A DNA stretch of 64,000 bases from Tolypothrix sp. PCC 7910. Lineage in GTDB: Bacteria; Cyanobacteriota; Cyanobacteriia; Cyanobacteriales; Nostocaceae. The notes beneath the pieces are model-generated. The model was not told the origin of the DNA. It ran no database searches and saw only the letters and a list, made by a program, of their open reading frames with translations. The translations under genes were made by a program, and so were the position numbers. The stretch is from NCBI RefSeq assembly GCF_011769525.1, contig NZ_CP050440.1, positions 4,341,501 through 4,405,500 of the forward strand. Reading direction: 5' to 3'. Shown here piece by piece: positions 44,984-57,464 of the stretch (positions are counted from its first letter, which is position 1; each line of letters begins with the position of its first letter).

Positions 44984-45595
44984 ATGCAAGTTACACAACA
45001 GCGATATTACACCCCAGAGGAATATCTCGAACTAGAAGCAACTGCTGACTACAAAAGTGAATATATTGATGGGTATATCATTCCGATGGCTGGTGGTACA
45101 TTAAATCACAATCAAATAGCGCTCAACTTAAGTACTGAATTAAATTTTGCCTTCAAAAAGCAAAACTACTGGGTGTATATAGGTGATGTTCGGTTGCGGA
45201 TAGCCCAAAAGCGTAGTTATATTTATCCCGATGTGATGATTCTGGCAGATGAACCAGAGTATTTCAACAACCGCACAGATATAATCGTCAATCCCCAGGT
45301 GATTGTAGAAGTTTTATCACAATCTACCAAAGCATACGATCGCGAAGCTAAATTCCAAGCATACCGCACAATTCCCAGCTTTCAAGAATATCTGTTAATT
45401 GACCAAACCCGGATTCATGTAGAACAATTTTCCAAAACGGGTAAGAAACAATGGACATTGCGTGAGTACGATGAAGAAGATGAAGCGATCGCACTGGTAA
45501 CTGTACCTTTTACTATTTCCTTAAGCGATTTGTACAACAAAGTAAATTTTGAGCTTGTGGAGTCGGAAGTTCAAGAACTTAATGTAGAAGAATGA
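44984..45595 (+). CDS. Uma2-family PD-(D/E)XK endonuclease-like protein, second copy
   Basis: 203-residue DUF820/Uma2 protein. The nuclease core is IYPDVMILADEPE, then VIVEVLSQSTKAYDREAKFQ and QEYLLIDQ. It starts YYTPEEYLELEATADYKSEY and keeps the acidic residue before the central strand. Clearly diverged from the copy at 9239. It follows the aldo/keto reductase by 45 bp on the same strand and might be read through from it. Confidence 0.9.
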   Translation: MQVTQQRYYTPEEYLELEATADYKSEYIDGYIIPMAGGTLNHNQIALNLSTELNFAFKKQNYWVYIGDVRLRIAQKRSYIYPDVMILADEPEYFNNRTDIIVNPQVIVEVLSQSTKAYDREAKFQAYRTIPSFQEYLLIDQTRIHVEQFSKTGKKQWTLREYDEEDEAIALVTVPFTISLSDLYNKVNFELVESEVQELNVEE

Positions 45596-45703
45596 GATAA
45601 AGTACGAGCAATACTTTTTATTTTAGATGTGTGTTTTCCCAGATAATCAAGCGCGAATTTAAATTTAATTGATATTATCGCATTTCCCAATTTAGTTACG
45701 TAG

Positions 45704-45730
45704 GATGCGTTAGCGATAGCGTAACGCATC
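45704..45730. repeat. Intergenic palindrome (GATGCGTTA / TAACGCATC)
   Basis: Nine-bp perfect arms with a 9-base loop; typical dispersed cyanobacterial repeat between convergent genes. Confidence 0.75.
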
Positions 45731-45878
45731 AGCGCCAAAGCTGAGATTTTTGTAGAACCCTAAATCTGTAAGCTGTTACGCATTTAAATTTAACCTTTAA
45801 CCTTTTAACCAAAAACAATTTTGAGTTCAAAACGCTTAACCAATTAGTATTGGGAATTGTGGCATATTGATGAAGAAT

Positions 45879-47708
45879 TTAAAACCTAAATGTAGTGCGA
45901 ATAACGCCTGTATAAATGGTGTCGTTATTGTTGTTATGTTCTGGATTAAAGATGACAATTAATCCGGGCGTAATCGAAAGATTGCTATTGACTTGATAAC
46001 GATATAAAGCCTCTACATGGAAAGATGTACCAGTATCTATACGTCTATCCGGCACAAGATTTGTGGCGCTAACGCTATTGTTGCCAAAGTCGTTACCAGT
46101 TACTTTTGGCGGTTGTCCAAAGATAATACCCCCAAGATTTCCCTTTTTACCTAAGTCAGGGAAGGCGAGAGTCACAGCCCAGTTCCAAATATCTGCCTTA
46201 TCGCCACGATTGACATTCGCACCAGAACTATTTTCTGCGATCGCCTGAGTATATCCCACCCAACCGCCAAGGGTAAATTGGGGACTGAAACGATAATTGG
46301 CTTGGAAACCATAGTTGTTGGTTGTGGTGTTCACCGGAGTAGTAGCAGTTGAGTTGAAGGGATTATTCGCAAATGCACTCCCATAGGAACCAGAAACTAC
46401 CACATCACCATCATTGTTAGAGCCTCTGAGGTAAGAATGAGCATAAGTCAAACCCAAGCTCAAGTTTTGGTTGGGCTGAAATGCTAATTGTGCTAAAGCG
46501 CCATAACTACCGTCAAATAACCCTTTACCGTCACTTGGTTCGCTACCTCTGCGCGCCAGATAACCACCAGATAAGGTGATTGTGTCGCTTAACTTGAAAA
46601 TTGCACTCACACCTGAGCCTGTATTGCTGGCGGAGGAGGTATTACTGGCGCGGTAAATCGGAGAGAAACGACCAAAGCGGGATAAAGAACCAATGGGAGT
46701 GGAAGAAAACAAGGGGTTAAAGGTGTTGAAGTTGTCGTAGAACTCGCCTCCAATCGCATCAACGATGATGTTGAGTTTTTCACCCACAGGAAAACGATAA
46801 TACAACTTGCCTAGTTGAACACTGTTATCGGCATTATTGGTGGTATCCCAGGATGTGCGAGTCATGTTTGTACCTGTGACTGCACCACTAAAAGCTGTAG
46901 TGTTGTTGGCTTCTAAGCGGGTAAATAGTTGGTCTTTACCTGTGAAGCTGGTAATCAAATTGAGTCGGACGCGATCGCTAAATGTGGCTCTATCTTGCAG
47001 CCTCCGTCCACCAGATGCAGCATACTGATTGTTGGCGAAAGTGTCTCTAGTTGCGCCTGCGGGTCTAGCGTTGATTTCGTTCCACACATCTGAGTTTAAT
47101 GCGCGATCGCCACCAAACACGCTACCAAGACTAAAAATTACTTCTCCATTCAACTTGGTAGTAGCAGAAAACTGTTGACTCTCTAAGGTAGCTGTCCGAC
47201 CTTCTAAGCCATCTAACCTACCTCTGAGTTCTACTAGTCCATCAGCAAACTCTTGTTGCAATTTCTGTAAGGTTTCTAAATCTTGCTTTGTGACTAAATC
47301 GGCTGTACCAGTTGCAATCAGTTCGTTAACTCGATTCAAACAAGCATTCAAACCTGCTGCAAATTCATAGCGAGTCAGCGCTCGATTTCCGCGAAAGCTG
47401 CTATCTGGATATCCCGCAATGCAACCATAGCGCTCTACCAAAGACTGCAAAGCACCAAAGGCCCAATCTGTTGGCTGCACATCAGAAAGTTGCGATACTG
47501 ATGTTACCTGCTCCATTGCAGTATTTGGCTGTGCGTTTTCAACTACAACCGACTGGCTGTGTGGCAATATTTCTGTTTGTGACTGATTTATTTGACTATC
47601 AGCTTGTAATTGGTTGGTATTTTCTCCAACTGGAGTTGCTGATGCAGCTTGAGCTAACATCATACTAGCTAGCACTAGTAACAATGAAGACTGTACAAAA
47701 CTTGACAT
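45879..47708 (-). CDS. SLH-domain outer-membrane porin (iron-uptake-porin/OprB type)
   Basis: 609-residue outer-membrane channel. It has a signal peptide (SLLLVLASMMLAQAASA), an SLH domain at about 75-130 (QPTDWAFGALQSLVERYGCI and LTRYEFAAGLNACLNRV) that anchors to the peptidoglycan layer, a short coiled coil (about 140-180), and a C-terminal 16-strand-like barrel ending in aromatic TTFRF. Porins of this type pass inorganic ions. ATG at 47708 chosen because GAGG lies upstream, over the GTG at 47717. Its promoter region shares five ACCAA-N5-TTGGT sites with the divergent modA, so I infer a role in molybdate (or tungstate) entry. Confidence 0.9.
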   Translation of the reverse strand: MSSFVQSSLLLVLASMMLAQAASATPVGENTNQLQADSQINQSQTEILPHSQSVVVENAQPNTAMEQVTSVSQLSDVQPTDWAFGALQSLVERYGCIAGYPDSSFRGNRALTRYEFAAGLNACLNRVNELIATGTADLVTKQDLETLQKLQQEFADGLVELRGRLDGLEGRTATLESQQFSATTKLNGEVIFSLGSVFGGDRALNSDVWNEINARPAGATRDTFANNQYAASGGRRLQDRATFSDRVRLNLITSFTGKDQLFTRLEANNTTAFSGAVTGTNMTRTSWDTTNNADNSVQLGKLYYRFPVGEKLNIIVDAIGGEFYDNFNTFNPLFSSTPIGSLSRFGRFSPIYRASNTSSASNTGSGVSAIFKLSDTITLSGGYLARRGSEPSDGKGLFDGSYGALAQLAFQPNQNLSLGLTYAHSYLRGSNNDGDVVVSGSYGSAFANNPFNSTATTPVNTTTNNYGFQANYRFSPQFTLGGWVGYTQAIAENSSGANVNRGDKADIWNWAVTLAFPDLGKKGNLGGIIFGQPPKVTGNDFGNNSVSATNLVPDRRIDTGTSFHVEALYRYQVNSNLSITPGLIVIFNPEHNNNNDTIYTGVIRTTFRF

Positions 47709-47734
47709 TACCCTCACACCTCAAATCTATTTAA

Positions 47735-47768
47735 ACCAACATAATTGGTGGTTTCCAACTATATTGGT
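47735..47768. promoter_or_regulatory. Two adjoining operator-like sites, porin-proximal
   Basis: Site 1 at 47735-47749 is a perfect ACCAA-CATAA-TTGGT. Site 2 at 47754-47768 is TCCAA-CTATA-TTGGT with one mismatch. They lie 27-60 bp before the porin start codon. Centres are 19 bp apart. The motif recurs at 47841, 47867, 47951 and 51825. Confidence 0.7.
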
Positions 47769-47840
47769 GTGTATTAGCAAGAATTACGTATTTCTAGAAC
47801 TGATTACTTCGTCTTATTGATACATGCAGACTAGATTTCA

Positions 47841-47881
47841 ACCGACTTAGTTGGTATATAATTTATACCAATTAAGTTGGA
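47841..47881. promoter_or_regulatory. Two operator-like sites, middle of the porin-modA gap
   Basis: Site 3 at 47841-47855 is ACCGA-CTTAG-TTGGT and site 4 at 47867-47881 is ACCAA-TTAAG-TTGGA, each with one mismatch. Between them TTGGTATA and TATACCAA form an additional perfect outward inverted repeat (47851-47871). Confidence 0.65.
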
Positions 47882-47948
47882 TAAAATGTAACACTGGTTA
47901 CAAATTTACAAATACCAAGAATTTACAATACAAAAACTAATCGCAAAA

Positions 47949-47967
47949 ATACCAAATAATTTGGTAT
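47949..47967. promoter_or_regulatory. Operator-like palindrome proximal to modA
   Basis: A perfect 19-bp palindrome with arms ATACCAAAT around a single central A, containing site 5 (ACCAA-ATAAT-TTGGT, 47951-47965). It is followed by an inverted half-site to form TTGGTATTCTTGGTAAA (47961-47977), whose complement recurs exactly at 50006-50022. It lies about 70 bp before the modA start. Confidence 0.7.
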
Positions 47968-48034
47968 TCTTGGTAAACTTGTAAGATTCTACCAAGCATC
48001 AATTTAAAAAAATTCTTTGGCTTGCAGCTTTTCT

Positions 48035-48832
48035 ATGAACAGAAGACAAATTCTTAAATTAGTTGGTACAGCAGTTGCTAGCTTTTTGGTAACCAGTAGT
48101 TTACCAGCACTTACTTCTACACCCGTACTAGCACAGTCAAAAGCCAGCCTCCTTGTATCTGCTGCTGCTAGTTTGAAAGAAGCGTTGGAAGAGATTAAGC
48201 CTCTTTACCAACAAACTAATCCGAATACCAACATTAATTATAATTTTGGTGCTTCTGGTGCTTTGCAGCAACAGATTGAGCAAGGTGCGCCTGCAGATAT
48301 CTTTATTTCTGCTGCTAAAAGGCAAGTCGATGCTCTAGAAGGAAAAGGACTCTTGCTAGGAGGAACTCGTTCTGTTTTAGCGAAAAATCGTCTGGTTTTG
48401 ATTGTACCTAGAAATGTTGTGGGCATTACCAGCTTTTATAATCTAAAAGATGACAAAAAAATCAAAAAAATCTCTATTGGCGAACCGAGAAGTGTCCCCG
48501 CAGGACAATATGCAGAGCAAGTCCTTCAGAAACTCAAGATTTTGCCACAAGTCAAATCTAAGTTGGTCTATGCTAACAATGTGCGTCAAGTGCTGGCATC
48601 TGTAGAAAGTGGCAACGCTGATGCAGGTTTAGTTTATATCACTGATGCCAAAATCTCAGATAAGGTAAAAGTCGTGGTGGCGGCTGACGAAAAATATCAT
48701 TCTGCGATTATTTATCCATTTGCAGTCCTCAAAAGCAGCAAAAATGCTGATGCTGCAAAGGAGTTTGCTAAATTTCTATCTAGCAATCAAGCTAAAGCAG
48801 TACTGCAAAAATACGGCTTTATTCTGCCTTAA
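48035..48832 (+). CDS. modA: Molybdate ABC transporter substrate-binding protein, copy 1
   Basis: Periplasmic molybdate/tungstate-binding protein of 265 residues. The signal is twin-arginine-like (MNRRQILKLVGTAVASFLVT) with cleavage near LAQSKA. The ModA ligand motifs are visible: LVSAAASLKEALEEIKPLY, NFGASGALQQQIEQGAPADI, RSVPAGQYAEQVL and VESGNADAGLVYITDAK. It is not followed by permease genes; those are 5 kb away with a second modA. ATG at 48035 chosen over the TTG at 48017. Confidence 0.94.
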   Translation: MNRRQILKLVGTAVASFLVTSSLPALTSTPVLAQSKASLLVSAAASLKEALEEIKPLYQQTNPNTNINYNFGASGALQQQIEQGAPADIFISAAKRQVDALEGKGLLLGGTRSVLAKNRLVLIVPRNVVGITSFYNLKDDKKIKKISIGEPRSVPAGQYAEQVLQKLKILPQVKSKLVYANNVRQVLASVESGNADAGLVYITDAKISDKVKVVVAADEKYHSAIIYPFAVLKSSKNADAAKEFAKFLSSNQAKAVLQKYGFILP

Positions 48833-48916
48833 TTGTTCATAAAAAAGTCACTCGATTTTAGATTTTTAATTTTAGATTAACCTCTTATTTAAGGAGGAGG
48901 TTTTAAATTTACATTG

Positions 48917-48955
48917 TTTAGCTCTCCGACTTATTCAATAAATCAGAGAGCTAAA
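48917..48955 (+). terminator. Hairpin downstream of modA
   Basis: A 10-bp perfect stem (TTTAGCTCTC with GAGAGCTAAA) with a 19-base loop, some 85 bp after modA. There is no clear T-tract, so it may act as a weak or bidirectional terminator. Confidence 0.55.
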
Positions 48956-48984
48956 TCTGCAGAAATTATTTAGTCCTGCTGTTA

Positions 48985-49209
48985 CTACTTTATACGATAC
49001 CAAAAATGCATTTTGGGTGTCAGGTAAAGAAGAGCGATCGCCAACATGACTTCAAGTGGTATCAAAGAAAAAAAGAGGCTGGAACAAAACCAAAACATTG
49101 CAAATAATAGAGCTATTATTTGCAAATAATGATTGGTGACTTTTGTAGTGATGTTCAAACAAAGTAAAGCTAGACCTAGCGCAATCGATGAATAGAAAAA
49201 CGTTAGCAT
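48985..49209 (-). CDS. Possible small membrane protein, 74 aa
   Basis: Seventy-four residues that are almost entirely hydrophobic, with three likely membrane helices (TFFYSSIALGLALLCLNIT, YLQIIALLFAMFWFCSSLFF and LEVMLAIALLYLTP) and a basic C terminus (KMHFWYRIK). No homologue recognised and no good ribosome binding site. A frame on the same strand at 49052-49258 overlaps it and is less protein-like. Convergent with modA. Confidence 0.4.
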   Translation of the reverse strand: MLTFFYSSIALGLALLCLNITTKVTNHYLQIIALLFAMFWFCSSLFFSLIPLEVMLAIALLYLTPKMHFWYRIK

Positions 49210-50343
49210 TGTGCTTGAGTAATAATGTACAGAACCCCAGATGATTGATGAACTGCAAGCAGAACTATGTCTCCCCAGAACTCTAGAACTGCTACCGATC
49301 TATTAACGCCACAATACCTCCAGAACATCGTAGAATCAGATCATCAGTTCATCAAACCATTGGTTCACCCATGTATGGGATTTTGTTACTTCACCAGAGT
49401 TATACGAACATTAATCAACAGATTGTTCATTATTAACAATGGTTGTCCCAACTGTAACTAATTTGATAACTTTTCTGTTGCTGTTTGGTTTGCTAACCTC
49501 GCTTTAGAATCCTTAATCTCCAATCTCAAGATTTATCCATATTTCCCTACCAGCTAAAGCTTTACACTCCAAGGAAAGATGATAATATCTCGGTTTGGTT
49601 TGATAGAGGAGCATCCCAAGTTTCAGTTAAAAAAAGCTACATTGGACTTAATTGTATTTGCCGACGCAAAAGCATAATTTTCGCTTTGGGTTCTACCTAA
49701 TTCCTGTTGGATAATTTTTTGCTTTTGCTGTAAGGATTCCCTATAGATAAATCATAGCATATCAGATCGCCAAATAACTTGCTAACAGACAGAATTCTGG
49801 CTGCTGACGTTCTTGAAATGATTAACTTTCAGTTGTTCTGGTTCTAAAAAGAGTTTAGCAATATCAAATCAAAACCGGATAAATTTTATCGGCTAATTTC
49901 CGGTATTCATTGCCACCGGAGGCGATCGCTCTACAGCTAAAACTGTTAAAATCCAAAACATATTCTAGCTATAAAAAGTTTTTGTCCCAGTCCTCTTGGG
50001 TGGTCTTTACCAAGAATACCAATTTGAAAAAAGAATGCGACAGATTGTAGGGGTAAGCATTGCCTTGCTCTCTAGAATATATTGATATGTCACTAAAGAC
50101 CTCAATTTTTTAGCTAACAGCTAGCAATGCAGACATCTGCAAATACGTTGTGATGATACAGGAATCAGCCTTGATTTCTGAAATTATTTGCGTAGTAAGG
50201 TAACAGGGAGCAGATAAGAAGAAATAATATCATGCCCGTTTGAATACTTATCATATCTGTAAAGGTCGGTAATGGGTAATGGCTAATGGGAAAAAAAATA
50301 TTATGCAGAGTTTCCCAACCAGACAACCAACCACAATTGCAAT
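49210..50343. other. 1.1-kb noncoding region between modA and the regulator
   Basis: I find no convincing gene. At 50006-50022 it contains TTTACCAAGAATACCAA, an exact complement of the sequence at 47961-47977 in the modA promoter. A degenerate copy of the 26187 palindrome lies near 50048. The rest is AT-rich with many stops in all frames. It could hold a small RNA promoter or degenerated coding DNA; nothing in the sequence decides. Confidence 0.5.
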
Positions 50344-51537
50344 TTAATTAATAGTTGCTACAACTTCCCCGATTTTACTAGTGTCATAGCCACCCACTAC
50401 TTCTAATTGTGAATGCACCAACCGATGTCCCAAAGTACCGAGTAGTTGCTGTACAGGCGCTTCTTCAAGATGTTCATTGAGAATAACTAAGTCATAGCGT
50501 GACTGATGTAGAGGAATAAACCCCAATCCAAAGGCAGTAGCTACAGATGCCGTACTGATACCTGCGTCAGCAATTCCTGATGCGACTGCGAAAGCAACAT
50601 CTTGGTGACTTGTGACAATTTGGTCAAATCCTTTAACCTCTTGAGATGGTACTTGCTCTTGTTGAAGTTTTCTCTCCAACAGCATTCGACTACCAGCACC
50701 TAGTTCTCTATTAACAATAGTTGCACCTAATTCTAATAAGTCACTAACTGTTTTTATTCCCATTGGGTTACCAGCTTGGACTAACAGTCCTTCCTCCCAA
50801 ACACCAAGAGTAATCAGAACTGCTTCTTTACCAGCTAAAACATCACGGACAAAAGGAATATTATGTTCTCCAGTTTCCGGATGGTAGAGGTGCATTCCGG
50901 CAATGTGAACCTCTCCTTTACACAGACTGTGCAATGCAGCCATGCTATTAGCGAAATTATATTGAACTCGCAATTGGGGATGCCAGCGTTCAGTAGCTCT
51001 AGCCCAAAGTGAAATTACAGGTGCACAGCCGGCTATCACAACCGTGTTGTACAGGATATCCATATTATCGTCTAATAGCCGGACTTGCAGTTTCTCTGTA
51101 CCAACTTGACTGATAGCTTCTCCCTTCGGGTTCGATAGTTTGCTTATGCCGGGGAACCCGTCCACCGCAACTATCTCACCGTCTGCTGGAATCATATCTT
51201 GGCGAAAAGCATCTTTCCCCATTAAAGGGTAAGCTCTCCATTGTCCGCCAATCCGCGCTAAACTAACTCGCACTTTTTGCCCAGCAGGTACGGTTTTTGC
51301 CAGAAATGCTTCTATTTCAGGTAAATCCTGCTCCAGCCAGAATAGCTCCTCAACTTGACAACCTAATGCCTTGGCTAAACGCAGTGTAATAGCAACAGAA
51401 GGAGCGTATTGTCCTGACTCGACACCACTAATAGTCTGACGGGTAACTCCAGCTATGTTAGCTAAATCCTGCTGGCTCATGCCTAGACGAGTTCTGATTG
51501 ACTTCAAGTTGTTACGGAGGCCACTATCCTGCTTCAT
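50344..51537 (-). CDS. XRE helix-turn-helix regulator fused to a periplasmic-binding-protein-like domain
   Basis: 397-residue one-component regulator. Residues about 10-65 form an XRE helix-turn-helix (MSQQDLANIAGVTRQTISGV and PSVAITLRLAKALGC). The rest, from about 170, is a PBP-like fold (VIAGCAPVISLWARATERWH, RELGAGSRMLLERKLQQEQV, VAFAVASGIADAGISTASVA) of the type found in molybdate-linked regulators and in MoeA-associated proteins. A ligand, presumably molybdate, tungstate or a molybdopterin, would be sensed in the cytoplasm. Its position between modA and modBC and the palindromes nearby support control of molybdenum uptake. Function is inferred, not proven. Confidence 0.85.
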   Translation of the reverse strand: MKQDSGLRNNLKSIRTRLGMSQQDLANIAGVTRQTISGVESGQYAPSVAITLRLAKALGCQVEELFWLEQDLPEIEAFLAKTVPAGQKVRVSLARIGGQWRAYPLMGKDAFRQDMIPADGEIVAVDGFPGISKLSNPKGEAISQVGTEKLQVRLLDDNMDILYNTVVIAGCAPVISLWARATERWHPQLRVQYNFANSMAALHSLCKGEVHIAGMHLYHPETGEHNIPFVRDVLAGKEAVLITLGVWEEGLLVQAGNPMGIKTVSDLLELGATIVNRELGAGSRMLLERKLQQEQVPSQEVKGFDQIVTSHQDVAFAVASGIADAGISTASVATAFGLGFIPLHQSRYDLVILNEHLEEAPVQQLLGTLGHRLVHSQLEVVGGYDTSKIGEVVATIN

Positions 51538-51816
51538 TAGCTTATTTGGCTGAATTTATTCTCTCAATTACAAAAAGCTGTTGCGGATTTAACTGCATCT
51601 AACAAGACAGAAACGCCGTTATTGCATCAACCTGTCTGACAAACTTTGTACGTCTTTGCTGTTTTGATTCCCTATATTTAAACAATATCATAAGCTTTTG
51701 CAAATTTACTTGCGAAGGGAAGAAATTTTTGCGAAAGACAAATCATTACCAACTAGCGATCCATGAAAAGCTTTGATTTATCAACAACATAGGGATTTTT
51801 TTGATTCATTCTTATA

Positions 51817-51847
51817 ATCTTTTTACCAATAAAATTGGTAAAAAGAT
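51817..51847. promoter_or_regulatory. 31-bp operator-like palindrome upstream of the regulator gene
   Basis: Perfect 14-bp arms (ATCTTTTTACCAAT and its complement) around AAA, containing ACCAA-TAAAA-TTGGT (51825-51839). It lies 280 bp before the regulator start and 397 bp before the gene at 52244. This is the longest perfect palindrome of the family here. Confidence 0.75.
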
Positions 51848-52048
51848 ACATATGATACAGTTTCCAGAGATGAACTTAGTCTTTGATGGGTGATAGGCAA
51901 TCAGTATCAGCTGTAGAAAATACCTATAGCGATCGCACCAAATGGGTAGCTGCCATGAACATGAATGAAATTTATTGCATAGCAAATTCATCTCTTGCTA
52001 ACAAAGCGATGCATCGATACCACAGCTATCTCTCAGGTTAGCGGATGT

Positions 52049-52165
52049 TAAGTAGGTCGGCGAAATTAAAGATAACTGGCTGAGGCTGTCATTTGTCATT
52101 GGTAAGGATGTCAAACCTATTTACATCTCTTAAAATAGTTGGGTTTATTTCCACCGACTTACTTA
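52049..52165. mobile_element. Intact 117-bp MITE-like element
   Basis: Terminal inverted repeats TAAGTAGGTCGGCG and its imperfect complement (CACCGACTTACTTA). The interior is GATAACTGGCTGAGGCTGTC then TCATTGGTAAGGATGTCAAA and AATAGTTGGGTTTATTTCC. The split copy at 34794-35065 shares these blocks. No coding capacity, so it depends on a transposase elsewhere. Confidence 0.8.
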
Positions 52166-52243
52166 GTCTGATGTGTTCATCCATCTGTGCAGAAATACCC
52201 AAAATTGCAAATATTAACACCAATCAAATTATTGGAGGAAATC

Positions 52244-52591
52244 GTGATTACGGAAGAAGCCCTGGCCTCTCAGTTTACGGCAATTGTCGAGCAAACTCAC
52301 CCACAAGTATGGGAATTGTTACGTCACTGTTATATCCGAGTGATTAATCCTTACTTAACACGAGCAAGAATTCCCCATCCGCCCTATATTGGCATTTACT
52401 GTCCCGATAAAATGATCGCTGCTTTAGCATCACAGAAAAATGTACTCAAAGAAGTAGCTAGGTTGATAGGATTGGCCGATGTTGTTTGCTTAAACGCCAC
52501 ATATTTAATGAGCGATCCGCTGTCAAAACTTAAAGAAAATCATCCGCAGTTGTGGTTAGATCTGATTTGGATTTCCGCACAACCAGAATGA
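52244..52591 (+). CDS. Hypothetical protein, 115 aa, in the molybdate region
   Basis: I do not recognise this protein. I use the GTG at 52244 because TTGGAGGAAATC, an excellent ribosome binding site, precedes it by the right distance. Upstream ATG frames have none. The product is soluble with a Cys pair (YCPDKMIAALASQ, ADVVCLNATYL) and a helical N half. It is followed by the 119-residue gene at 52626 on the same strand with a 34-bp gap, so they probably form an operon. Their position between the regulator and modBC hints at a molybdenum- or nitrogen-related role; that is inference. Confidence 0.65.
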   Translation: MITEEALASQFTAIVEQTHPQVWELLRHCYIRVINPYLTRARIPHPPYIGIYCPDKMIAALASQKNVLKEVARLIGLADVVCLNATYLMSDPLSKLKENHPQLWLDLIWISAQPE

Positions 52592-52625
52592 GTAACTTAA
52601 CTTCTAAATTTATAGGTATCAGCTA

Positions 52626-52985
52626 GTGCATCCTGATGATTTCCCTTCAGAAAGGACAATAAAACTGAGTGTAATATTACTCAGACAACTTGAAGCTAAA
52701 ATCAAGCAGAGATTTTATCAAAGCTGTGTTCAGGTAACACGGATTGTCTTATCGAATTGTCATTGGTATTTCCGAATTAATTCTGGGGTTTTGATGTTAA
52801 TACTGGTTTGCTATGACATAGAAAGCTATCAGAATATTACGAGCATTATTCCCCAGCTTGTCGAGCAATTAAAACAATTTACTAACACAGCTATGATTAG
52901 TGTCAGCCCTCCTATTGCCAATGGTATACCCTTGATTATTAATGTAGAGCATCTGTTATCCGAAGAAGACTACCCTAGTAATTAA
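52626..52985 (+). CDS. Hypothetical protein, 119 aa, partner of the preceding gene
   Basis: Unrecognised. It starts with GTG (MHPDDFPSERTIKLSVILLR) or possibly a later codon. It has a central hydrophobic strand (INSGVLMLILVCYD) and a polar C terminus (PPIANGIPLIINVEHLLSEE). No signal peptide. It is 34 bp after the 115-residue gene and shares its strand, so translation as a pair is likely. Confidence 0.6.
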   Translation: MHPDDFPSERTIKLSVILLRQLEAKIKQRFYQSCVQVTRIVLSNCHWYFRINSGVLMLILVCYDIESYQNITSIIPQLVEQLKQFTNTAMISVSPPIANGIPLIINVEHLLSEEDYPSN

Positions 52986-53068
52986 CGACGTTGCTCATTG
53001 ATGGGATAATTTTTGTCTTACGCATTCGACGTAGTCGTTCTCGCCTAAAAGGGAGTGGGATGAGCTTG

Positions 53069-53174
53069 GGGACTTCCAAAAATCAATCGCTTTGGCAAGT
53101 AGAGGAAGCAGAGAAAGCAGAGGAGAAAGAATCTACCGCTGTGAAAATGGGATAATTTATTTTCTGGAAGTCCC
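53069..53174. mobile_element. 106-bp MITE-like insertion in an MFS gene remnant
   Basis: Ends GGGACTTCC and GGAAGTCCC are perfect 9-bp terminal inverted repeats, with further similarity inward (CAAAAAT against the complement of TTTTCTG). The inside is G/A-rich and noncoding. It sits immediately after codon 32 of an MFS gene fragment and has no transposase. Confidence 0.65.
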
Positions 53175-53175
53175 T

Positions 53176-53271
53176 AATACTACGCGCACCTTCATAAGTT
53201 GCATCAGCACAGAGGCTAACCAATCCTAATAAAATTACAAACTTTAAAGCGCTTGTTTTTTGCGGCATCAT
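53176..53271 (-). pseudogene. 5' remnant of an MFS transporter gene
   Basis: The first 32 codons (MMPQKTSALKFVILLGLVSL, then CADATYEGARSI) look like the start of a cyanobacterial MFS transporter, where the sequence would continue with a GPYL-type motif. Instead it runs into the MITE-like element and stops. The remaining 350 or so codons are missing downstream, so the gene was truncated by insertion and deletion. Confidence 0.75.
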
Positions 53272-53364
53272 CTGTAGAACAATAAATTTATGCTGTGCTA
53301 TTCATACACAGATTTCTACAAAAAATCAGTAGGCTTTGAAATTTGAATTATAAAATTCCAGCAA

Positions 53365-55179
53365 TTATTCCATCAAAATTAACCGCAGAGGATCTAAACG
53401 CAAATACCAAGGAAAAGGTTGGTCTTTGATTGTTGCCCATTTTTCTTTGAATACTTCTGCTTGCAAATGATAGTCGTGAGGATGATTAGCAGCAGAATGT
53501 AGTTTTAAAAATAAGGTCATGCGGTGGGGTGTTTCACTAGTTCTGGCTAGCCAACAAGGAAAGGTATTTTCCTGGTTAGGGTCTTTGGTAAAGCTGATAT
53601 GATGAGCACGAATACCAACATGAGATATGTTTTCGGGAATTGTATCTATAACTTGGATCTGACAACCCCAATCAGGAGCTTCAACCAAATCCGATCGCAC
53701 TAGATGCGCCATAGAAAAGTTTTTACAACCAGTAATTCGAGCAACACCCATAGTTGTAGGATGCTCAAAAATATCGTATTTAGAACCATATTGAACAGCT
53801 CGACCATGTTCTAAAACCAACAAATTTGGGCACACTCGGTAAGCTTCCTCCATATTATGGGTAACAAACAAAGCCACACCTTTGTAATTAGCTAGAGTCT
53901 CGGTCATTTGCTGTTCTAATTGACTCCGCAGGTGAGTATCAAGTGCAGAGAAAGGCTCATCTAAAAGTAATGCTTCTGGTTGAGAGGCTAATGCTCTGGC
54001 TAAGGCTACTCGTTGTTGTTGACCACCAGAGAGTTGGTGCGGATAGCGATCGCCTAATCCTTGTAATTGCATAGCTAATAATTGCGCTTCTACCTTTACC
54101 CGGATACTGCCGTTAGATAATCCTTTAGGTAAGCCAAAAGCAATATTTTGTACCACAGTCATGTGGGGGAACAGCGCATAATTTTGTACTAAAAAACCGA
54201 TGCGGCGATCGCGGCTGGGTAAATTAATTTTTTGTTCCGAATCAAATAGTACTTTGCCATTGAGGACAATACGCCCTTTCGTTGGTGTTTCTATCCCAGC
54301 AAGACAACGCAGAATCATACTTTTACCTGCGCCTGAACCACCCAATAAGCCTAAAGTTTGTTCATCGGTATTAAAAGCTACTTTAAGATGAAAACTCGAC
54401 AGTATTTTTTCGATATCTAGGCTTAATCCTACGGTCGAGGATAGTTGAGGTAGAACAGACGCTTCATCTGCCGATGTGTTTTGTCCCCATCCTTTTTTTT
54501 CTTTATTTCCTCGCCTCCCTTTCTCTCGCCATTCCTGCCAAAAGTTGACACTAATAATCCCCGATAGCGAAATTGCCATAATTACAATTGACCAAAACCA
54601 GGCCTCATCCATAGCTCCGGCTTCCACAGCAAAATAAATCGCCATTGGAATGGTTTGCGTTTGTCCGGGAATGTTACCAGCCAGCATCAACGTTGCACCG
54701 AATTCACCTAAAGCGCGCGCAAAAGCTAGAGTTGTCGCTGCCAAAATTCCTGGCAATGCTAAAGGTAAACTAATACGCCAAAAAATTGTGGACTCCGTTG
54801 CGCCTAGAGTTCTGGCTACCCGCAGGAGATTACTATCAATTTGTTCAAAAGCTCCTAGCGCTGTTTTATACATTAAAGGGAAAGAAACCACTGTAGCTGC
54901 GATCGCTGCACCGTACCAAGTAAAAACAATGCTGAAGTCAAAAGGCTGCATGAGGTTCCCTACAGGCCCATTCTTCCCAAAAAATATCAACAACAAAAAG
55001 CCAACCACTGTAGGAGGCAAAATCAATGGTGCAACAAAGATACCCTCAATTACTGATTTTGCTTTGCCTCGATATCCCAGCATCCAATAGGCAGCAGCAA
55101 TACCCAAAAAGAAAGTAATAAATGTCGCAAGTAATGAAGTTTTCAGAGATATCCAAAGGGGTGATAAATCCGGTGCCAT
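53365..55179 (-). CDS. modBC: Fused molybdate ABC permease and ATPase (ModBC)
   Basis: 604 residues joining ModB and ModC. The N-terminal half (about 1-230) has the membrane helices and the EAA-like loop GALEQIDSNLLRVARTLGA with GILAATTLAFARALGEFGAT. The C-terminal half is the ATPase: Walker A LLGGSGAGKS, signature LSGGQQQRVALARALASQPE, Walker B LLLDEPFSALD and the switch VTHNMEEAYRV. A regulatory tail follows with GIRAHHISFT. Such modB-modC fusions are known in cyanobacteria. It starts at the ATG at 55179; the open frame extends 14 codons upstream without a ribosome binding site. It lies downstream of modA copy 2 on the same strand, likely one operon. Confidence 0.93.
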   Translation of the reverse strand: MAPDLSPLWISLKTSLLATFITFFLGIAAAYWMLGYRGKAKSVIEGIFVAPLILPPTVVGFLLLIFFGKNGPVGNLMQPFDFSIVFTWYGAAIAATVVSFPLMYKTALGAFEQIDSNLLRVARTLGATESTIFWRISLPLALPGILAATTLAFARALGEFGATLMLAGNIPGQTQTIPMAIYFAVEAGAMDEAWFWSIVIMAISLSGIISVNFWQEWREKGRRGNKEKKGWGQNTSADEASVLPQLSSTVGLSLDIEKILSSFHLKVAFNTDEQTLGLLGGSGAGKSMILRCLAGIETPTKGRIVLNGKVLFDSEQKINLPSRDRRIGFLVQNYALFPHMTVVQNIAFGLPKGLSNGSIRVKVEAQLLAMQLQGLGDRYPHQLSGGQQQRVALARALASQPEALLLDEPFSALDTHLRSQLEQQMTETLANYKGVALFVTHNMEEAYRVCPNLLVLEHGRAVQYGSKYDIFEHPTTMGVARITGCKNFSMAHLVRSDLVEAPDWGCQIQVIDTIPENISHVGIRAHHISFTKDPNQENTFPCWLARTSETPHRMTLFLKLHSAANHPHDYHLQAEVFKEKWATIKDQPFPWYLRLDPLRLILME

Positions 55180-55232
55180 AGTTTTTTGGTAAGGAAGGTA
55201 CTGATACTGCGCGCAACGCAAGTCAATAATTT

Positions 55233-55260
55233 GTAGAGACGCGATTCATCGCGTCTTTAC
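55233..55260. repeat. Short REP-like palindrome inside the end of modA copy 2
   Basis: GTAGAGACGCGATT and ATCGCGTCTTTAC form a near-perfect 28-bp palindrome. Its complement encodes the last codons and the stop of modA copy 2 (VKTR then TGA at 55246-55248). Same family as 13692, 32849 and 35104. Confidence 0.85.
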
Positions 55261-56091
55261 GCTACCAGCTAATGTAAATCCTCGTTTTTCAAACACAGAT
55301 TTGGCTTCATTGCTCGATAAAAATTGCACAAAATCCTTAGCTGTATCGATTTTTTTACTACTTTTGAGTACCGCTATGGGATAGACAATAGGAGAATGAG
55401 TGTTTTCGGATGCAGTAGCCACTATTTTGACTTTTGGCGTACTTTTCGCATCTGAAAAGTAAACTAGCCCCGCATCAGCATTACCTGATTCTACGTAATT
55501 AAGAGCTTGGCGAACGTCTTTCGCGTAAACGGTCTTACCTTTAAGTTGGTTAAGAATTTTTAATGAACTTAAAATCTGTTGAGCGTATTGTCCAGCTGGG
55601 ACACTTTTGGGTTCCCCGAGAGCGATTCTTTTAATGTTTGGTGAAACTAAGTCTTTAAAATCAGTTACAAATGTGGAATTTTGAGGCGCAATCAACACTA
55701 TTTGATTTTTTAGCAAATCCTTGCGAGTACCATCAACTAACAAACCTTTTTGCTGTAAAGCATCTATCTGTTTAGTTGCAGCCGAGATAAAAACGTCAAC
55801 ACCTGCGCCTTGTTCAATCTGTTGTTGTAAAGCACCCGATGAACCAAAATTGTATGTCAAAGAAATATTTGACTTTTCTTTGCTGTACAGAGGCTTGATT
55901 TCATCCATTGCATCTTTGAGGCTAGCCGCTGCTGATATCGTCAAACTTGCTGTTTGGGCTGTCTCTTTACTAGTTAAGGATGAGTTAGGCGCGATCGTTG
56001 GGCTACAGCCAACAATGAGTAGGAACGAAACAAATACCCAACTCACAAAAGTCAGCATGGGTTTATTAATCATTAGCACTCTCTCAAGCAT
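55246..56091 (-). CDS. modA: Molybdate ABC transporter substrate-binding lipoprotein, copy 2
   Basis: 281-residue ModA with a lipobox (SFLLIVGCSP, acylated Cys about residue 29), so this copy is a membrane-anchored lipoprotein, unlike copy 1. Ligand motifs are kept: ISAAASLKDAMDEIKPLY, NFGSSGALQQQIEQGAGVDV, KSVPAGQYAQQIL and VESGNADAGLVYFSDAK. The C terminus runs into a REP-like palindrome which supplies SVKTR and the stop codon. The ATG at 56073 has a better ribosome binding site (GAGAG) than the one at 56091; both are in frame. It precedes modBC by 66 bp in transcription order. Confidence 0.93.
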   Translation of the reverse strand: MLERVLMINKPMLTFVSWVFVSFLLIVGCSPTIAPNSSLTSKETAQTASLTISAAASLKDAMDEIKPLYSKEKSNISLTYNFGSSGALQQQIEQGAGVDVFISAATKQIDALQQKGLLVDGTRKDLLKNQIVLIAPQNSTFVTDFKDLVSPNIKRIALGEPKSVPAGQYAQQILSSLKILNQLKGKTVYAKDVRQALNYVESGNADAGLVYFSDAKSTPKVKIVATASENTHSPIVYPIAVLKSSKKIDTAKDFVQFLSSNEAKSVFEKRGFTLAGSVKTR

Positions 56092-56637
56092 TTTTGCAGA
56101 ATTAATTCATAATTTACCAACCTATTCACCTAGAAACTAAAAAAAGTTGGTAAAAGAATCAGAGATTGTTAGAGTTTTATGACCAAATCAGGCAAAAGAA
56201 AGAAAAAGAATAATGGTCAGCAAGAGGAAAAGGGGCAGGGGGCTGGGAGCGAGGGGGAAGACCGGAGCTTGTACTCCTCCCCAAAGCGCCCTTCGAGGGC
56301 GGGGCTAGTACCTATGTTCCGCTATATTTCAGTAATTACCGTAAAATAATTGACCTTGTTAACCAAAGTCCTTACTTTGCTGGGGATTTCCAGAAAATCA
56401 GTAGACGGGAAAATTGATAACTATGTCATTGCATTAGTGGAACGTCTTCTTGCGGGGTACTTAGCAAGGAAAACTGCGATCGCACACAACCTAAATTCTG
56501 TCTAAAATCAAAAAAGGCGTAGAAGCTTTGCTTCTTGCCTTCGGACATCGCGTTATCTATATGGAATTGAGATAAACTGAGTTACTAGGATTTACCCCAG
56601 TTTTACCCCAGAAGTATTTAACTGCTTGTAATTCTAA
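56092..56637. other. Promoter region of modA copy 2 and repeat DNA
   Basis: At 56113-56153 TTTACCAAC and GTTGGTAAA form an inverted pair about 23 bases apart, half-sites resembling the operator of the porin-modA gap but with wrong spacing. Further on are a G-rich island (56223-56255), a GCGCCCTTCGAGGGCGGGG hairpin and an AGAAGCTTTGCTTCT hairpin near 56522. No gene seen. Confidence 0.5.
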
Positions 56638-56709
<72 letters not shown>

Positions 56710-56873
56710 GCAGTTGCGCTTATCTATATTAACAAGATTCTAGCTAAAAACGCATCCTCTGTTGGGAGAAATTTCTGAGTTTTACAACAATCAAGGAGAA
56801 ATTAAGTTTTTGTACTTAGCGCGATCGCATCTAACTGTATAGAAACCCTGCTAGGAGCGATCGCGTCTTACTG

Positions 56874-57464
56874 TCATAATTTCACTTCATCAGCAAAACT
56901 TTTCCACCGGACAAAGTGAAATGGCCCTGCAACAGATCCCCAGAGATGTTCGTCGGTTTCTGGATCTCGTCCCCTATCGAGGCTCATAAATGTTTCTTCG
57001 GTGATTTCAAATTCATTATCGAGATAGGTTTTTTGCCCTTTACGAAAGACGATGCAACCTTTCCCTGGTTCAACTTTACCTTTGAAGCTATTGCCAGTCC
57101 ATTCCACAATCATGTCACAGCCTGGTAACTTTTCTATGTCATCAATCTTTAAGGTGGCAAGTTTTTCGAGATCGCGGGAAGCACCGTAAAAGTTTTTCTC
57201 TTCTTTAACAGTGTAATTTTCGATGTGAATGCGATCGCCTACAGTCACTAACTTCAATACCCGCAAGCGATATGGGTCATAAAGCGCATAATCATAAGCT
57301 TGTTCCAAAAACAAACTCGCCCCTGATAAAAACTCCACAGGTAGGGGACGCATACACACACGAATATGGGCATAAAGAGGCGGGTTTTCAAAAGCTTGTT
57401 CTTGATTGCTAAAGTCAGCTGCCATCCAACGAGCTAAAGTAGCAATGTCCGTAGAGTGAGTCAT
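56874..57464 (-). CDS. CpcT/CpeT-family phycobiliprotein lyase
   Basis: 196-residue lyase that attaches phycocyanobilin to the beta-155-type cysteine of phycocyanin or phycoerythrocyanin. Family features are the opening LARWMAADFSNQEQAFENPP with HIRVCMRPLP, FLEQAYDYALYDPYRLRVL, and the end LWGSVAGPFHFVRWKSFADEV. Length agrees with CpcT. No phycobiliprotein genes are next to it. Monocistronic, convergent with tRNA-Cys reading direction excepted (same strand, 165 bp apart). Confidence 0.92.
   Translation of the reverse strand: MTHSTDIATLARWMAADFSNQEQAFENPPLYAHIRVCMRPLPVEFLSGASLFLEQAYDYALYDPYRLRVLKLVTVGDRIHIENYTVKEEKNFYGASRDLEKLATLKIDDIEKLPGCDMIVEWTGNSFKGKVEPGKGCIVFRKGQKTYLDNEFEITEETFMSLDRGRDPETDEHLWGSVAGPFHFVRWKSFADEVKL

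Follow-up and report, generated by a model that had tools for sequence, protein, structure and literature searches.

Which protein controls the molybdate transport genes of heterocystous cyanobacteria, and through which DNA sites? The question is raised by a locus of Tolypothrix sp. PCC 7910 in which palindromes of the form ACCAA-N5-TTGGT lie between a porin gene and modA1, encoding a molybdate-binding protein, and again upstream of the gene for an XRE protein with a PBP_like domain (XRE-PBP). The locus is part of a stretch of 64,000 nucleotides (NZ_CP050440.1, positions 4,341,501 to 4,405,500), here called the window, to which coordinates refer unless stated otherwise. Molybdenum limits nitrogen fixation by these organisms. 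In Anabaena variabilis, according to a review (PMC4284476), molybdate and tungstate repress a molybdenum-transport gene, and molybdate represses both mod and vnf genes, whose regulators the authors conclude to be different. There, the regulator of cyanobacterial mod genes is left as a guess, a modE homolog located just upstream of modA being named as the probable one. In this study, the palindromes were analyzed in the window, in the whole genome and in related genomes. The results give good support to the view that they are DNA operators of a molybdate regulon, and they point to RHH-Mop, a protein with a Mop domain and a putative ribbon-helix-helix (RHH) domain encoded outside the window, as the probable reader of these sites (estimated probability about 0.8).

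Palindromic sites in the window and in related genomes

The motif core was defined as ACCAA-N5-TTGGT and the extended site as TTTACCAA-N5-TTGGTAAA, scored over 16 arm positions. All six palindromes listed in a first-pass annotation were found again, namely two perfect cores (47735 and 47951) and three cores with one mismatch in the porin-modA1 gap, and a perfect core at 51825. The last had been placed in a perfect 31-bp palindrome; its two 14-bp arms are perfect, but they flank an AAA centre that is not palindromic, and 28 of 31 positions are symmetric. By chance, 0.025 sites would be expected in the 320-bp gap, and 2000 first-order simulations never gave more than 2, but five are present; the whole window contains 11 sites with up to one mismatch against 2.96 expected, a number reached in 0 of 100 shuffles. 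Further half-sites are present in the gap, TTGGT at 47970 and ACCAA at 47914 and 47991. One-mismatch sites within modBC (53816) and within the porin gene (46308) were not counted as operators, nor were those at 258, 41854 and 43607.

In the whole genome (8.76 Mb), 38 perfect cores were counted, compared to 22 for the reversed pattern. Three of them lie in the window, all intergenic, and 33 of the 35 outside fall into open reading frames (ORFs) of at least 90 aa. Among the five intergenic perfect cores, four are found at molybdate-related loci or in the gap between the XRE-PBP gene and orf134: two between porin and modA1, one in the XRE/orf134 gap, and one located 6 bases ahead of the RHH-Mop (RHH-molbindin) ATG, about 1.9 Mb from the window. 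The fifth has no evident partner (L411).

For comparison with relatives, 146 Nostocaceae genomes were used. The modA promoters were taken from 129 of the 139 genomes with a modA match, one modA each, while ten genomes with weaker matches were omitted (G127, G152, G159, G167, G186, G196, G199, G242, G250, and G251). An extended site scoring at least 14/16 was present in 85 of the 129 promoters, usually 92-107 bp before the match start, and the 47951 operator lies near this typical position. In 40 permuted-arm controls, the mean was 0.3 and the highest count 10, which was reached with the near-identical arm ATTTCCAA. The exact extended pattern occurred 47 times in 40 of the 146 genomes, and the reversed control not once; over the whole order it was found in 2 of 120 genomes. 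Forty of the 47 exact sites lie near listed genes, five in ORFs of 346-576 aa, and two are intergenic without a listed neighbor (L140, L182). Because some of the listed genes had been taken from the site neighbors themselves (hsdRN, LLM, DUF7219, tiaS-like, membrane protein, moco227, and vnf genes), sites near genes picked beforehand (modA, modBC, porin, Mop/RHH-Mop, XRE-PBP, orf134, and orf119) were counted separately, which left 32 of the 40.

At other loci, the site is present in porin and modA promoters, including the position of the 47735 operator in the porin promoters of L016, L017, L064, L073, and L186, at molbindin genes (L024-L026), and at modA genes of only 38-42% identity (L032, L054). 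Outside Nostocaceae, no site was seen at four modA loci that have just a Mop gene as neighbor (L366, L371, L372, L383). According to the genome scan and the permuted and reversed controls, random intergenic DNA does not carry the motif at an equal frequency, and the sites are conserved at the orthologous modA, porin and XRE-PBP promoters of Nostocaceae.

Palindromes of this kind could also act as RNA hairpins, i.e., as terminators or riboswitch-like elements, and two of them were flagged as terminator-like. However, the arms are fixed in sequence, with positions 5, 6, 16 and 17 being C, C, G and G in 84, 84, 85 and 85 of 85 sites, next to 45 different spacers, and in the seven inner pairs no symmetric double change was seen among these sites, which were chosen for likeness. 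Moreover, an Rfam search of 45000-57000 gave only a tRNA, and half-sites also occur 21-31 bp apart. A function as RNA hairpins is therefore considered very improbable.

RHH-Mop as candidate reader of the sites

RHH-Mop was found in 119 of the 146 Nostocaceae genomes. The modA site was present in 80 of 113 genomes with RHH-Mop vs. 5 of 16 without it (p 0.0036; here and below, p values disregard the kinship of the genomes and are hence too small). By genome class, it was found in 37/55 genomes with RHH-Mop and XRE-PBP, 43/58 with RHH-Mop alone, 2/9 with XRE-PBP alone, and 3/7 with neither. RHH-Mop is encoded in 39 of the 40 genomes that carry an exact site (p 0.0014), and in the exception, G251, the site lies inside an ORF. 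The RHH-Mop gene diverges from modA in 44 of the 129 genomes, where the two genes share one site and are nearly always separated by 96-106 bp. Where RHH-Mop is present but does not adjoin modA, the modA site is still found in 41 of 69 genomes, compared to a permuted mean of 0.1 (maximum 2), which shows that the modA site is not merely the promoter element of the RHH-Mop gene itself.

The promoter of the RHH-Mop gene was analyzed with a table of 51 rows, including four copies of the own gene, from which 30 orthologues (L207-L236), eight RHH-only relatives and eight paralogues were counted. At 21 bp ahead of the ATG, a perfect core starts in 23 of the 30 orthologues, and two more have a core with one mismatch. 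All eight RHH-only relatives (L071, L075, L077-L080, L084, L086) are 65-residue proteins without Mop domain; they are encoded near vanadium-type genes, and each has the site at -22. Outside Nostocaceae, the site stands beside RHH-Mop in three of five loci (L362, L363, L369).

The C-terminus of RHH-Mop matches TIGR00638 (Mop) with 68.7 bits at a cut-off of 55, and TOBE (PF03459) is also above its cut-off. Sequence matches in the PDB are ModG (1h9j, E 1e-21), MopII and Tub, and the C-terminal fold also matches the DiMop of ModE. The N-terminal half, MPRKEQGWVTFQTSEEERKILEEFCNQSQRTKTEILRELVRGL, contains the pattern GWVTFQxS..RTKTEILRELVRGL, which was judged RHH-like by eye. In the AlphaFold model (mean predicted local distance difference test, pLDDT, 63.8), helices at residues 15-28 and 32-44 are followed by a disordered part (44-80) and an OB-like barrel. 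Because only the Mop/TOBE half is recognized by protein families and the model is of low confidence, the N-terminal domain is regarded as a putative RHH domain. ModE was rejected as reader; its ModE_repress domain (TIGR00637) is found neither in the own genome nor among the NCBIfam hits of RHH-Mop.

Several observations weigh against RHH-Mop as the reader, in addition to the p values being too small. When modA does not adjoin the RHH-Mop gene, the association is weak (41/69 vs. 5/16, p 0.053). The five genomes without RHH-Mop that keep the modA site include G133 and G179, in which no RHH-Mop match was obtained even at E 0.01, yet the modA site scores 15/16. Conversely, 33 of the 113 RHH-Mop genomes have no modA site of 14/16, and modA1 of the window is among those below this score (13/16), although its gap also holds two perfect cores. 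No site at the ATG was found in 5 of the 30 RHH-Mop orthologues, and at the two loci L364 and L365 outside Nostocaceae it is lacking beside RHH-Mop. A paralogue of RHH-Mop with 51-55% identity has the site at its ATG in none of eight loci (L065, L066, L178, L043, L090, L052, L070, L082). At the protein level, the weak AlphaFold model predicts the two helices without an N-terminal strand ahead of them, and a Pfam search gave no RHH hit in RHH-Mop. Finally, the exact sites also go with XRE-PBP, which is encoded in 27 of the 40 site genomes vs. 44 of 106 others (p 0.006), an association that is explained at least partly by the many sites adjoining the XRE-PBP gene.

XRE-PBP and the site at 51825

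The first-pass annotation had assigned the sites to XRE-PBP, which would bind them and repress porin and modA with molybdate. XRE-PBP is the nearest regulator and has a perfect site about 290 bp upstream. Upstream of 84 homologue matches (80 loci), a perfect core was present in 29 and a core with at most one mismatch in 39, mostly near -290. Furthermore, close homologues resemble VnfR, the Mo-dependent repressors of vnf genes, and dimers of the XRE (434) type would fit half-sites 10 bp apart.

The distribution among genomes argues otherwise. XRE-PBP was found in 71 of the 146 genomes at E 1e-100; in the remaining 75, a second search at 1e-10 gave only fragments, degenerate copies or a lone helix-turn-helix (HTH) in six, and G179 and G209 were counted as lacking XRE-PBP. 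Among RHH-Mop genomes, the modA site is independent of XRE-PBP (p 0.54 for the counts with and without it given above), and XRE-PBP alone goes with the site in few genomes (2/9). The spacings of 21 and 31 bp are also a poor fit for a single XRE dimer. In addition, the site upstream of XRE-PBP follows a divergent orf134-type gene: where orf134, orf119 or an hsdR-like gene diverges from XRE-PBP, 30 of 32 loci carry it, compared to 9 of 34 without such a neighbor and 0 of 13 with orf134 ahead on the same strand. The 31-bp inverted repeat with the 51825 site is conserved in alignment A2, an element beside it on the orf134 side is conserved as well, and the site likely serves orf134. A different conserved element, in the form TTCGCAAGTAAATTNGCAA, lies nearer to the XRE-PBP gene, over its -35 region, and is the better candidate for an operator of XRE-PBP itself. 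Binding of the palindromes by XRE-PBP instead of RHH-Mop is therefore improbable. The proposed molybdate regulon thus keeps its conserved porin and modA sites and a motif unlike the ModE site, but not XRE-PBP as its regulator.

RHH-Mop might also act on all sites while XRE-PBP competes or cooperates at some of them. The enrichment of exact sites in XRE-PBP genomes would agree with this, as would the frequent location of the XRE-PBP gene, vnfH, vnfE and vnfN beside a site. However, XRE-PBP has no effect on the presence of the site at modA, and such joint action appears just as unlikely as action of XRE-PBP alone. RHH-Mop thus remains the preferred reader.

Many relatives carry vnfH-, vnfE- and vnfN-like genes behind XRE-PBP, or have it ahead of a ModBC-like transporter. 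At L195 (4043-9456), L025, L026, L043 and other loci, NifH-, NifE- and NifN-like genes follow on the same strand, and no NifD/K-like genes were seen among them. In the window, neither vnfH nor a gene of the vupABC family was found beside XRE-PBP. About 1.5 kb between modA1 and XRE-PBP (48833-50343) have no ORF of 80 aa, and tblastn gave no remnant of vnfH, vnfE or vnfN there. VnfR1 and VnfR2 of A. variabilis, as described in PMC4284476, have an N-terminal HTH and are encoded upstream of vupABC or vnfH, like XRE-PBP in relatives; they repress vnf genes, whereas XRE-PBP of the window, which may be of the same type, has no vnfH beside it and is not the likely reader of the palindromes.

Proposed regulon, half-site spacing and known systems

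The features of the locus are listed in Table 1.

Table 1. Genes and putative regulatory sites of the molybdate locus (window coordinates, except RHH-Mop).
Feature	Position	Strand	Remarks
Porin	45879..47717	-	SLH and OprB domains; matches NF033921 (iron uptake porin); putative regulon member
Operator ACCAACATAATTGGT	47735..47749		Perfect core; porin start codons (ATG 47708, GTG 47717) lie 18-27 bp downstream
Operator TCCAACTATATTGGT	47754..47768		One mismatch; in phase with the 47735 operator (half-sites 10, 9, 10 bp apart)
Operator ACCGACTTAGTTGGT	47841..47855		One mismatch
Operator ACCAATTAAGTTGGA	47867..47881		One mismatch; top extended match in the modA1 promoter, 13/16
Operator ACCAAATAATTTGGT	47951..47965		Perfect core; 84 bp before the modA1 ATG (48035)
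modA1	48035..48832	+	Molybdate-binding protein (TIGR01256); putative regulon member
XRE-PBP	50344..51537	-	HTH_3 (Cro/C1 HTH) and PBP_like domains; VnfR-like
Second conserved element TTCGCAAGTAAATTTGCAA	51698..51716	-	Over the -35 region of the XRE-PBP gene
31-bp inverted repeat	51817..51847		Contains a perfect operator core (51825-51839); adjoins the rightward orf134 promoter
orf134 family	52244..52591	+	Listed ORF start 52187; GTG 52244 agrees with relatives
orf119 family	52626..52985	+	Adjoins orf134
modBC	53365..55221	-	Fused permease and ATPase (TIGR02141)
modA2	55246..56091	-	Second molybdate-binding protein (TIGR01256)
Split operator TTTACCAAC...GTTGGTAAA	56113..56154		Upstream of modA2-modBC; half-sites 31 bp apart
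RHH-Mop	G000:C1:2501163-2501597		145 aa, Mop C-terminus; own genome, outside the window

The porin had been proposed to carry molybdate. Its promoter sites speak for a place in the molybdate regulon; as to its cargo, only the promoter favors molybdate, while the protein is classed as an iron-uptake porin. In ModBC, the permease part is above the cut-off of TIGR02141, and the ATPase part scores under the cut-offs of the ABC families that it matches. Profile searches gave no family match for orf134 and orf119, and the predicted fold of orf134 (pLDDT 84.0) had no PDB match with E <0.001. In L188-L190, L198 and L199, a recurrent operon behind the site comprises genes for an HsdR N-terminus-like protein, orf134, a luciferase-like monooxygenase, orf119 and sometimes NifH-/NifE-like proteins. 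In L192, L194, L196 and L197, a modA-like gene or the site adjoins genes for a TiaS-like protein, a 189-aa membrane protein and a molbindin.

In the 129 modA promoters, the distance from ACCAA to TTGGT was 10 bp in 77 cases and 21 bp in 19, and longer distances of 29, 30 and 31 bp were found in 25, 18 and 13 cases (background at most 0.1). In 16 modA2 promoters, the spacing was 21 bp in six and 31 bp in five, the others having 22, 30 or 17 bp; in the window, the halves before modA2-modBC are ACCAA at 56116-56120 and TTGGT at 56147-56151. Distances of whole helical turns would fit a model of separate RHH dimers joined by a common tether. Each ACCAA half-site would be held by one RHH dimer, and flexible linkers of about 36 residues would tie two or three dimers to an assembly of Mop domains, so that half-sites on the same face of the DNA could be filled by them at distances of one, two or three helical turns. 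Molybdate-bound RHH-Mop would repress porin, modA1, modA2-modBC, orf134-orf119 and its own gene, and scarce molybdate would lead to derepression of the regulon. We infer binding, ligand and stoichiometry in this scheme; its repressing sign is suggested by analogy to the published repression of a Mo-transport gene by molybdate and tungstate in A. variabilis, and tungstate is probably also part of the response. A more speculative, rather doubtful extension would be a third molybdate-sensing architecture, in which a Mop ring bearing several tethered RHH dimers bridges the operator clusters between porin and modA, and RHH-only relatives near vanadium genes compete for the sites, thereby coupling vanadium to molybdenum supply.

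The modE homolog of A. variabilis resembles RHH-Mop in its place upstream of modA and in the proposed response to molybdate and tungstate, as described in PMC4284476. The two may be the same protein, an equation suggested by position. The question of the mod regulator becomes directly testable through a defined operator, a regulon list in which an outer-membrane porin stands next to two small proteins, and a candidate sensor with an unusual domain pair.

ModE of Escherichia coli is likewise a Mo-dependent repressor of mod genes with a Mop/TOBE sensor, to which the Mop match and the DiMop-like fold of the RHH-Mop C-terminus correspond. It differs by its winged HTH (ModE_repress) in place of the RHH-like N-terminus, and the ModE operator differs from the ACCAA/TTGGT motif. 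NikR is a nickel-sensing repressor in which an RHH domain is joined to an ACT sensor domain, with half-sites two turns apart. RHH-Mop would share the combination of RHH domain and metal sensor, but its sensor is a Mop domain and its half-sites are also one and three turns apart. The molbindins MopII and ModG and the tungbindin Tub have the Mop domain in common with RHH-Mop, but are storage proteins without a DNA-binding domain. Among the matches listed from the open-licence PMC literature, there was no molybdate-sensing RHH protein and no ACCAA/TTGGT operator. If the proposed role is true, RHH-Mop would add a Mop-RHH sensor beside ModE.

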